A DNA stretch of 42,419 nt, from assembly GCA_007118095.1 (NCBI GenBank), contig SKSF01000061.1:1-42419 (forward strand), in the 5' to 3' direction. Below are positions 30,496 to 33,595 of the stretch, one piece after another. This stretch comes from Dehalococcoidia bacterium. GTDB taxonomy: Bacteria > Chloroflexota > Dehalococcoidia > Tepidiformales > Tepidiformaceae. Both the position numbers and the translations under genes were made by a program. The notes beneath the pieces are model-generated. The model was not told the DNA's origin, ran no database searches, and was given only the letters and a program-made list of their open reading frames with translations. Each line of letters begins with the position of its first letter. Within the stretch, counting starts at the first letter, position 1.

Positions 30496-31341
30496 TTAGC
30501 CACCAGACCGGTCCCAGCGGAACGTGAACCGGGCGATGAGGAACGACGCGACGAGCCACGCCACGAGCACCACCAGCACCCATTCCGTCTGCCACGAGCC
30601 GCCGTAGTCTTCCGTAGCCACCCAGTCGGGAAGGAAGACCTGGCGCATGCCCTGCACCATCCACTTCAGCGGGAAAACGGACGCTACACCCTGGAGCCAC
30701 GCCGGGATCATCGAATACACGAAGAACACGCCGGAGATGAACATCAGGATCAGGAACGGGGGCTGGACGACGGCCGGGGCCGAGTTTGCGCTCTTGATGA
30801 GCCGCGTATAGGTGATGCCCAGCAACGAGCACGAGGCCACGCCGAGGAGGAATACCACCGCGAACAGGCCATAGAGCCCGGGTTCGGACGGCAGCGACAT
30901 GTCGTAGAAGGTGACGCCGATAGCCAGGATGATGATGACCTGGGCGACCGCGGTGGTGAGGGCAAGGCCGATCTTCCCCGCAAAGTACGCGGAGCGCGGA
31001 AGCGGCGTCCCCGCCAGCCGCTTGAGCGTTCCGTCATGCTGTTCCATGGAGACAGTGGACGCGAGCGATGCGAACGTCACGCTCATAACCCCGGCCGCGA
31101 TCATCCCGGCAGCAAAATACTGCGAGAACGGAACGGGTTCGACGCCAGCCGGGCCTTCGATTTCGTCGCTGAAGATGGTGCCGAAGATGACGACGAACAG
31201 CACTGGCAAGAGGAACGTGAAGAAGACCTGCTCCGGTTGTCGAAAGAACTGGAGGAGCTCCACGCGCGTCCGGCCGAATGCGAGCGAAACAAGCGATGGT
31301 GCGGTGCGGGTTGCTGGTTGGGTGGTTGCCCTGGATTCCAT
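30496..31341 (-). CDS. ABC-2 type transporter permease
   Basis: 281 residues with six hydrophobic segments. The first follows a coupling helix (TRVELLQFFRQPEQVFFTFLLPVLFVVIFG); later ones include YFAAGMIAAGVMSVTFASLA, the VSMEQHDGTLKRLAGTPLPRSAYFAGK loop typical of ABC-2 permeases, and a last helix near the C-terminus. It pairs with the ATPase that ends six bases upstream. AAGGAG precedes the ATG by nine bases. Together they resemble the YadG/YadH and DrrA/DrrB exporters of drugs or lipids; the cargo is unknown. Confidence 0.9.
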   Translation of the reverse strand: MESRATTQPATRTAPSLVSLAFGRTRVELLQFFRQPEQVFFTFLLPVLFVVIFGTIFSDEIEGPAGVEPVPFSQYFAAGMIAAGVMSVTFASLASTVSMEQHDGTLKRLAGTPLPRSAYFAGKIGLALTTAVAQVIIILAIGVTFYDMSLPSEPGLYGLFAVVFLLGVASCSLLGITYTRLIKSANSAPAVVQPPFLILMFISGVFFVYSMIPAWLQGVASVFPLKWMVQGMRQVFLPDWVATEDYGGSWQTEWVLVVLVAWLVASFLIARFTFRWDRSGG

Positions 31342-31347
31342 TTGCGG

Positions 31348-32277
31348 TTACTCCTTGCTGCCGGTAGCTGGCGCTTCGCTGATCATTTCGAGGTAGATGT
31401 CTTCCAGGCTCGGGCGGGTAACGGTGAGGCCCGGCAGCTCCTCGAACCCGTATTCCCGCGCCCATGACGCGAGCGCCACAACGACCGCGGTCGGTTCGGT
31501 CGCCGGCAGGGTCACCAGACCCTCGGCTTCATGGTGTTCGAGCTCGAGCGGGAAGGGAGTGCTGGCGAGCGATCCTTCCCGCCGGAAGGTGATGCGGGCC
31601 GTGGCGCGTTCGCGGCCGCCAATCTCCCTCGGCGTGCCGATGTCCGCGACCCGGCCCTCGACAATCACGGCGACGCGCCGTGCAAGGTGCTCCGCTTCGT
31701 CGAGGTAATGGGTCGTCAGGACGACCGTCTTGCCAAGCCCCGTCAGGCCGTCGACCATCTCCCACGCTTGGCGGCGTGCCGACGGGTCGAACCCGGTCGT
31801 CGGCTCATCGAGGAACACCAGGGCAGGGTTCCCGACGATTCCCAGCGCGACGTCCACGCGGCGCTTCTGCCCGCCCGAAAGCGTGTCGCAGCGGGCCTTG
31901 CGCTTTTCCGCCAGGCCGGTGATACCGATGACGTGGTCGACCGGCAGCGGATCCGGGTAGAACGTCGCGAAGTGCCCGACGACCTCCTCGACCGTGAGCT
32001 TTTCAAAGACCCCGCTCGACTGGAGGACAATGCCAAGCCGCGCCTTCCAGGCAGCCGTTCCCTGGCCGGGATCAACGCCCAGGACGGTAACGTCGCCGCC
32101 GGTTCGGGCGCGGTAACCCTCGAGGATTTCAATGAACGTCGTCTTCCCGGCGCCGTTGGGCCCCAGGATCGAGAACACCTCGCCAGGTACAATGTCGAGG
32201 CTGATGCCTTTGAGTGCCTGGTTCGGCCCGTAGCTCTTTGTGACATCTCGTGCGTGGACGGGGAGGGTCGGGTGCAT
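31348..32277 (-). CDS. ABC-2 exporter ATP-binding protein
   Basis: 309 residues. Walker A GPNGAGKTT at 39-47, Q-loop LGIVLQSSGVFEKLTV, signature TLSGGQKRR, Walker B LVFLDEPTTGFDPSARR and H-loop LTTHYLDEAEHL. After residue 225 comes a DUF4162-type tail ending in LEDIYLEM, as in DrrA/CcmA-like drug-export ATPases. Start ATG at 32277; the frame extends to 32406, but that would cover the promoter and the MerR start. It is divergent from the MerR gene; the 76 bases between hold two copies of the dyad operator. Confidence 0.93.
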   Translation of the reverse strand: MHPTLPVHARDVTKSYGPNQALKGISLDIVPGEVFSILGPNGAGKTTFIEILEGYRARTGGDVTVLGVDPGQGTAAWKARLGIVLQSSGVFEKLTVEEVVGHFATFYPDPLPVDHVIGITGLAEKRKARCDTLSGGQKRRVDVALGIVGNPALVFLDEPTTGFDPSARRQAWEMVDGLTGLGKTVVLTTHYLDEAEHLARRVAVIVEGRVADIGTPREIGGRERATARITFRREGSLASTPFPLELEHHEAEGLVTLPATEPTAVVVALASWAREYGFEELPGLTVTRPSLEDIYLEMISEAPATGSKE

Positions 32278-32298
32278 GGCGCATCGCCTCACAGTTTG

Positions 32299-32337
32299 GA
32301 TAGTGACACTATCGGATAGTGACGGTATCGTTGTCAA
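32299..32337 (-). promoter_or_regulatory. Exporter promoter with tandem dyad operators between merR and ABC-2 genes
   Basis: On the minus strand: TTGACA (32337-32332), 18 bases, GATAGT as -10 (32313-32308). The -10 is the left arm of the perfect dyad GATAGT-GTC-ACTATC (32299-32313). A second, imperfect copy sits at 32315-32329 (+ strand GATAGT-GAC-GGTATC), so the copies repeat every 16 bases. The layout suggests repression of the exporter by the divergent MerR protein. Confidence 0.7.
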
Positions 32338-32353
32338 CAATCGGAGGCGGATC

Positions 32354-33031
32354 ATGCGAATGCAGGCATTGAGCAAGGAGTCAGGCGTCAGCGTCCCGAC
32401 TATCAAGTACTACATCCGCGAAGGCCTCATGCCGCCCGGGACGCCGACAGGCCCGAACCAGGCGGACTATGGCGATACGCACCTTCGGCGGTTGGCCCTG
32501 ATCCGCGCGCTGCGCGAAGTCGGGGGGCTCGGCATCGTGACCATTCGGGAGGTACTGGCCTCTGCGGGCGAAACACAGGCAGACACCATTGGCGCCATGG
32601 GCCAGGCGATGGATGCGCTTGCCGCCAGCGCCCGGCCGGACGAAGCCGGCGAGCACGACCCTCGCGTGCCACCCATGGTGGAGGAGCTCCGCAAAATCCT
32701 GGCCTCCGAAGGCTGGGTCTTCCGGCCTGGGGCCGGGGCCCTTTCAGCACTCGCCCGAGCCCTGGTCGCTGGCGCCGATGCCATGGGGGAGGAACCCGCA
32801 CCAAAAGCCGTCCGGCTCTACGCTGAGCCAGTGATGGAAATTGCGCGGCGTGAATTCGGTCCAAGACAGATACAGGAGGACGAGGCCCGCGTTGACGAAG
32901 ACACGATCGCCTGGGCGGTCGTCGGCACCATCCTCTACGAGCCGGTTATCCTCGCGTTGCGCCGCCTGGCGCACGAGCACGAAGCCCTGTCACGCCTCCC
33001 GGAGCACGTCCGGCGCAAGCTCTCACAATAG
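32354..33031 (+). CDS. MerR-family transcriptional regulator
   Basis: 225 residues. The N-terminal winged HTH (MQALSKESGVSVPTIKYYIREGLMPP, 3-28) followed by the wing (NQADYGDTHLRRLALIRALREVG) is a clear MerR domain. The C-terminal 150 residues are a helical ligand or dimer domain without a recognised family; there are no metal-binding cysteines, so a small organic inducer is likelier than a metal. GGAGG lies six bases before the ATG. Divergent from the ABC-2 exporter, and probably regulating it and itself through the dyads at 32299-32329; the same dyad at 24.0 kb suggests a second target. Confidence 0.88.
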   Translation: MRMQALSKESGVSVPTIKYYIREGLMPPGTPTGPNQADYGDTHLRRLALIRALREVGGLGIVTIREVLASAGETQADTIGAMGQAMDALAASARPDEAGEHDPRVPPMVEELRKILASEGWVFRPGAGALSALARALVAGADAMGEEPAPKAVRLYAEPVMEIARREFGPRQIQEDEARVDEDTIAWAVVGTILYEPVILALRRLAHEHEALSRLPEHVRRKLSQ

Positions 33032-33035
33032 GCGC

Positions 33036-33063
33036 CCGGTCTCCCACCGTGATGGGAGACCGG
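33036..33063. terminator. Terminator-like hairpin between merR and the selenoprotein gene
   Basis: A perfect 11-bp stem (CCGGTCTCCCA / TGGGAGACCGG) with a 6-base loop, four bases after the merR stop and 14 before the convergent stop. No T run on either side. Confidence 0.5.
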
Positions 33064-33076
33064 AGACGCGCTCTGC

Positions 33077-33595
33077 TTAGTCGACGAGCGCCTCGATGAT
33101 CTGGTCGACAATGCCGTCTGCCCTGGTCCGCATCTCTTCGTCGGTGGCGTCCTGGATTGGATGCTGAACAAACAGGCGCTTAACCTCTGGCAGCCCGAGC
33201 GACCTCGACTGGACGTCTGCCGCGTCAACGAACTCGGACGATGCAATAAACACCGAGGGAATGCCCTGGATTTCGAACCATGTAGTGTCGTGCACACTGC
33301 ACGTTGTACACGACCCTCAATCAGCGAGCGCTTCGATGACGAAGCCGCACTCCTCTGCGATCCGCCGACGCAGGCTTTCCGGCGCTGGTTTGGTGAACGT
33401 TGGCTTGTTGTAGTGCTTGAAGGTGACGCCCGGGAGGCGTGCCTTGATCTGCTCTTCAACCCGGGCGATGAGCACATCCCCGCGGGGCTTCGAAATATCC
33501 AGCAGAGCAACCGTGCCCGAAATGCTCTCGGGGCGCTTGCTGAGGTGCCGCTCAACAGGGACGCGTTCGTCGGTCGGGTCCAGGATGGTGGTCAC
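33077..33595 (-). CDS. UGSC-family selenoprotein (in-frame TGA as selenocysteine)
   Basis: 172 codons from GTG 33595 (GGAGG six bases upstream) to TAA at 33077, with TGA at 33319-33317 as codon 93. Either side of it the frame is open and of one family. Before it: FTKPAPESLRRRIAEECGFV, then IEALAD. After it: GSCTTCSVHDTTWFEIQGIP, then SVFIASSEF and LGLPEVKRLFVQHPIQ. Reading the TGA as Sec gives U-G-S-C, the motif that names the family, at its usual place. A 10-bp hairpin right after the TGA fits a SECIS. These proteins are thought to be thioredoxin-like or thiol-redox proteins; no reaction is proven. If the organism cannot insert Sec, it would be a truncated 92-residue product. selA/B/C/D are not in this window. 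Confidence 0.88.
33287..33314 (-). promoter_or_regulatory. Candidate bacterial SECIS element
   Basis: On the minus strand, two bases after the TGA, GTCGTGTACA pairs with TGTGCACGAC (10 bp, one G-T wobble) around the loop ACGTGCAG. The loop G nearest the stem is 18 bases from the U of UGA, inside the range known for SelB-binding hairpins. The hairpin lies within the coding sequence, as bacterial SECIS elements must. Confidence 0.75.

Follow-up and report, generated by a model that had tools for sequence, protein, structure and literature searches.

According to a published account (PMC13188914), the selenoproteins GrdB and PrdB cleave C–N bonds reductively, and thioredoxin serves the glycine reductase complex. 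UGSC proteins are among the major environmental selenoprotein families and are without known function. Two reports (PMC2398784; PMC13188914) place UGSC among proteins with a thioredoxin-like fold, and the first, the GOS paper, reports a fusion of UGSC to a domain called Unknown_1. Within the accessible part of the literature searched, no biochemistry on the family was found.

We analyzed a UGSC gene in a stretch of 42,419 nucleotides from a Dehalococcoidia bacterium (contig SKSF01000061.1), referred to here as the window. The features that concern us are as follows.

33077..33595, minus strand: coding sequence of a UGSC-family selenoprotein, 172 amino acids, GTG start, TAA stop, selenocysteine at residue 93
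33317..33319, minus strand: TGA codon, almost certainly decoded as selenocysteine 93, kept as TGA at the same codon in homologues
33308..33319, minus strand: U-G-S-C active-site motif, with Sec93 and Cys96 invariant in an alignment of 18 diverse members
33289..33303, minus strand: apical hairpin CGUGCA-GUG-UGCACG of a putative bacterial SECIS, marked by covariation and frozen synonymous codons
33601..33606, minus strand: ribosome-binding site GGAGGA upstream of the GTG start, by direct reading of the sequence
32240..33031, plus strand: MerR-type regulator, convergent (PF13411, E 5.9e-18), adjoining UGSC in five related loci
31348..32406, minus strand: ABC transporter ATPase, downstream (PF00005, E 7.4e-25)
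30496..31341, minus strand: ABC-2 permease, downstream (PF01061, E 3.9e-25), also downstream in seven related loci

Upon translation, the TGA at 33319-33317 proved to be the sole interruption of the minus-strand frame 33595-33077, which opens with GTG at 33595 and closes with TAA at 33079-33077. A preliminary description of this DNA had reported two open stretches in one frame parted by that TGA, and its coordinates were exactly right, as was its U-G-S-C motif: with the TGA at codon 93 read as selenocysteine, the sequence runs U93-G-S-C-T-T-C99. The layout is common: at 57 places in the window an in-frame TGA links two open stretches of comparable size, and hence open frames by themselves are no proof. 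The observation stands above chance because the protein matches a known family and its TGA is conserved. The read-through protein matched both curated models of the family well over their cut-offs, PF24696 (UGSC) with 159.9 bits (E 8.5e-47, residues 3-171 of 172; cut-off 25) and NF041046 ("UGSC family (seleno)protein") with 160.1 bits (cut-off 125), and the TGA and the frame downstream of it are kept. The gene, which ordinary gene callers would split or miss, adds a new member to an already known, functionally uncharacterised selenoprotein family. Among the 18 diverse members, K64, U93, G94, C96, D103, G111, F122 and G134 are invariant. The cysteine following the two threonines, which had been described as completing a CxxC-like motif, is present as Cys99 but lies outside this family-wide invariant site.

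A search for a sigma-70 promoter and an intrinsic terminator found neither. An inverted repeat (GGTCTCCC/GGGAGACC) that lacks a T-run occupies 33038-33061, in the gap that separates UGSC from the convergent MerR gene. Homologues of the ABC ATPase were found in 10 related loci, in eight of them on the same strand. The true starts of the ATPase and of the MerR regulator probably lie further in than annotated. Because the order of the MerR, ATPase and permease genes beside UGSC (30496-33031) is kept in several related loci, the block is old synteny. The 29 pattern matches obtained in viral contigs did not include any that codes for a relative, and an origin from viruses or mobile elements was rejected.

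The TGA is conserved well beyond the window. In 32 genomes of relatives, all 66 homologous places contained exactly one stop, a TGA. The codon was also present in every genome_contigs locus inspected (80 loci were retrieved, spanning Chloroflexi/Dehalococcoidia, Gammaproteobacteria, Pseudomonadales, Binataceae and others), as well as in the codon alignment and in the HMM-filtered set. Across 400 genomes of the phylum, 85 of 90 places matching PF24696 carried it; the five that did not include some short fragments and could include cysteine forms. Ratios of dN to dS against close relatives were 0.085-0.21 before the TGA and 0.07-0.14 after it, which indicates that purifying selection is equally strong on either side.

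The genome to which the window belongs (3.2 Mb, 98% complete) contains everything that the preliminary description had proposed searching for: selA, selB, tRNA-Sec and selD. SelB (614 amino acids) scored 308 bits over C70:13805-14908, or 329 bits with its in-frame neighbour, against a cut-off of 242, and tRNA-Sec scored 72.6 bits against a cut-off of 47, with anticodon TCA (UCA) as called by ARAGORN. The selD gene (356 bits; C48:19752-20681, L019) has an in-frame TGA of its own, and the selenophosphate synthetase is therefore probably itself a selenoprotein. SelA was found in two pieces, positions 2-325 on contig C68 and 339-453 on C209, apparently because contig ends interrupt the gene. Thus, selB and tRNA-Sec are present, and the relatives have a conserved downstream frame in place of an ordinary stop, so that neither of the two grounds on which the preliminary description would have been abandoned was found. 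In a sample of 61 genomes, made up of this one and its relatives, selA accompanied UGSC in 28 of 32 genomes as compared with nine of 29 that lack UGSC (Fisher p 7e-6). The four UGSC genomes with no selA match each have a listed completeness of about 81%. In a wider survey, one genome (G394, 98% complete) contains a UGSC–Unknown_1 fusion with a TGA (L162, at C35:28845-29375), yet has no selA match.

A SECIS just after the TGA had also been proposed, in the form of a 10-bp stem with an 8-base loop. That stem exists, at 33314-33287, and is the computed minimum-energy fold of a 41-nt piece (-16.5 kcal/mol, z -1.96). Of 89 distinct homologues, however, no more than 17 have nine of its pairs at once, and 75% of its cells are paired with no excess of covariation over shuffles; we reject it as the SECIS for want of covariation, real though the fold is. 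Nested within it is a smaller hairpin, 33303-33289, with a 6-bp stem and the loop GUG at 33297-33295, which is whole in 82 of the 89. In 35 diverse sequences, 95.2% of its cells are paired, four of its six pairs exhibit compensatory changes, and there are 14 double-change cells as against 2.1 in shuffles; its covariation score of 0.293 (versus 0.116) was reached by none of 500 shuffles. Codons +5 to +7 (ACG TGC AGT), spanning the 5' arm as well as the loop region's first base, are synonymously almost invariant among 81 distinct sequences, and synonymous sites in the rest of the gene stay close to background (mean synonymous-site ratio 0.59 inside these codons and 0.95 outside, a contrast matched by none of 20000 random sets). 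The loop starts 19 nt past the TGA, a spacing within the range for bacterial SECIS elements. The smaller hairpin, then, is on comparative evidence the likely SECIS, and the proposal was mistaken as to the stem.

Two readings in which no selenoprotein is made must be weighed against this evidence. One is that the gene is a pseudogene, its TGA having arisen recently by nonsense mutation or reflecting an error of sequencing in the metagenome assembly; the frequency of the layout in the window means that the layout itself is no evidence against this, but the same codon is TGA in every close homologue, from independent genomes, dN/dS is low on both sides, the SECIS is frozen, and the machinery for selenocysteine is present in the genome. 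The conservation of the TGA together with the dN/dS values excludes a pseudogene, to which we attach practically no probability. The other is that translation ends at the TGA in the ordinary way and that a 92-amino-acid protein is the functional product. Some termination at selenocysteine codons is to be expected in bacteria, but the 79 codons after the TGA are under selection as strong as that on the codons before it, the residues Cys96, Asp103 and His145-Pro146, all invariant or almost so across UGSC members, lie after the TGA, and the predicted model described below needs post-TGA residues for two of its five strands. A functional short product is accordingly very improbable. From the comparative evidence and the machinery in the genome, decoding of the UGA as selenocysteine is nearly certain.

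What the selenoprotein does is a matter on which two further readings compete. UGSC could be a general selenol/thiol oxidoreductase, an antioxidant akin to thioredoxin or peroxiredoxin, rather than a substrate reductase of the GrdB/PrdB kind. The placement of the family among thioredoxin-like-fold proteins in the literature cited above speaks for this, and the UxxC motif and the thioredoxin-like partner described below suit a redox relay. Structure prediction and profile comparison point the other way. An AlphaFold2 model built on 50 aligned sequences (pLDDT 92.3, pTM 0.87) is built of five beta-alpha units in strict alternation, and Sec93 immediately precedes helix 94-109; the top Foldseek hits, at E of about 1e-5 to 1e-4, were flavodoxins and flavodiiron proteins, and comparison with assorted alpha/beta proteins gave Z about 10. 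UGSC is thus confidently predicted to be a flavodoxin-like alpha/beta domain in which Sec93 opens the helix after the third strand. The order of elements in the thioredoxin fold (beta-alpha-beta-alpha-beta-beta-alpha, with antiparallel strands) is not that of the model, which calls into question, at the level of prediction, the fold assignment repeated in the literature. The similarity of profiles favors GrdB/PrdB, and the set of invariant residues exceeds what a simple redox pair would call for. On balance we regard a general oxidoreductase as unlikely, if far from negligible. Searches for solved structures by sequence found none for UGSC relatives, and a search through the GrdB profile returned one weak, unrelated match alone.

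The likeness to GrdB emerges when family members are compared as profiles. Twelve of the 18 diverse UGSC members match glycine reductase selenoprotein B, and others match GrdF, GrdH or PrdB (best E 5e-5 to 5e-4). An hhalign comparison of UGSC with a GrdB profile, built from GrdB homologues in Chloroflexota genomes, gave 92.6% over 81 columns. Masking the selenocysteine column left a score of 41.8; none of 60 column-shuffled controls exceeded 21.1, and a reversed one scored 16.1. The window's own protein gave no match to GrdB models at E up to 1, the fusion L162 scored far under the cut-off, and other UGSC members match weakly; the window's protein falls short of the family cut-offs (PF07355/TIGR01917/TIGR01918) and is not classed as a GrdB member. 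The profile evidence supports UGSC as a candidate stand-alone, distant relative of the selenocysteine domain of selenoprotein B from glycine, betaine, sarcosine and D-proline reductases. The likeness peaks over 30 columns around the selenocysteine motif and could in part be motif convergence.

In 57 of the 80 related loci a partner gene lies just upstream of UGSC, ending anywhere from 4 nt inside it to 121 nt upstream (median gap 28 nt; 59 measured). Its product, typically of 520-530 amino acids, is a thioredoxin-like domain fused to Unknown_1. The first ~130 residues are thioredoxin-like, with matches to the ResA/AhpC-TSA family and to a DsbE-like structure, the latter at Z up to 18.0 and 1.7 A across 132 residues, and in the closest relatives this domain carries a CPTC motif. 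Unknown_1 (~350 residues) gave no significant match to a Pfam family, and the structure-match lists for the partner protein were filled by the thioredoxin domain. In the long form L162, Unknown_1 follows UGSC as a fused domain (32-34% identity, E 1e-40 or better), and from the description in the GOS paper we infer that the Unknown_1 named there is the domain found here.

In the window's genome the partner gene resides on another contig, C113, so that a putative operon is seen in relatives rather than here. The C113 gene is 81% identical to that of locus L054. A second, divergent UGSC gene (L165, C27:32335-32835, plus strand; 28% identity), with an in-frame TGA of its own, lies about 27 nt ahead of an Unknown_1 match (C27:32862-33890, plus strand). 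Because of the C113 gene and the C27 pair, the association of UGSC with Unknown_1 holds here at the level of the genome, though not beside the window's UGSC. The SECIS region of L165 lacks the usual CAGUGUG loop. Many PF24696 matches in the phylum fall in long open frames of about 530-1030 amino acids, which are possibly UGSC–Unknown_1 fusions like L162, in which alone the fused domain was looked at. Some genomes (G045, G057, G178, G193 and G362) have between 6 and 12 matches of the UGSC type apiece, and this expansion suggests that substrates have diversified.

Taken together, we consider it probable that the gene encodes an intact selenocysteine protein that acts as a GrdB/PrdB-like selenol reductase recharged by a thioredoxin-fused partner, the function of UGSC in this scheme being inferred. 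SelB and tRNA-Sec would insert selenocysteine at the UGA as directed by the G-U-N-loop hairpin 19 nt downstream. The Sec93 selenolate would attack a small substrate and reductively cleave a carbon-heteroatom (or similar) bond, and Cys96 would resolve the product as a selenenyl-sulphide whose Se-S bond the CxxC in the partner's thioredoxin-like domain would then reduce back, while the role of Unknown_1 is probably to hold the substrate or to contribute the remaining half of the active site. Comparative evidence supports selenocysteine decoding, the SECIS, selection on the full product and genetic pairing with the thioredoxin-fused partner; the fold and the distant homology to the GrdB/PrdB selenocysteine domain are supported as predictions. 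More tentatively, and with somewhat less confidence than doubt, we suggest that UGSC and the thioredoxin-fused Unknown_1 protein constitute an uncharacterised two-component, selenium-dependent reductase system, widespread in Chloroflexota, Gammaproteobacteria and Binataceae, with a stand-alone GrdB/PrdB-like selenocysteine domain, a dedicated thioredoxin that recharges it, and a substrate other than glycine, betaine, sarcosine or proline. In the literature reachable by full-text search for UGSC, which takes in few subscription journals, we found nothing linking UGSC to GrdB/PrdB or to a dedicated thioredoxin-fused operon partner; tying the family to both provides a concrete, testable hypothesis.

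How, finally, does the window's protein compare with known systems? It is an ordinary member of the UGSC family (NF041046, PF24696), sharing the full-length match over curated cut-offs and the U-G-S-C motif and differing in nothing essential. With selenoproteins of the thioredoxin fold it shares the UxxC redox motif and differs in its predicted alternating beta-alpha, flavodoxin-like architecture. With GrdB, GrdF, GrdH and PrdB (PF07355, TIGR01917, TIGR01918, TIGR04483) it has in common a U-G-[S/T]-C-x-x-C motif that opens a helix; the E-x-x-G-[IV]-P stretch that follows and, farther on, an H/HP motif also align, over about 80 residues in all. Given that GrdB and PrdB cleave C–N bonds and that glycine reductase uses thioredoxin, the analogy is a specific one. 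Unlike GrdB, UGSC is a separate protein of 172 amino acids that has no counterpart to the GrdB N-terminal part and lies under the GrdB cut-offs, its second cysteine is not conserved family-wide, and its common neighbour is the thioredoxin–Unknown_1 protein.
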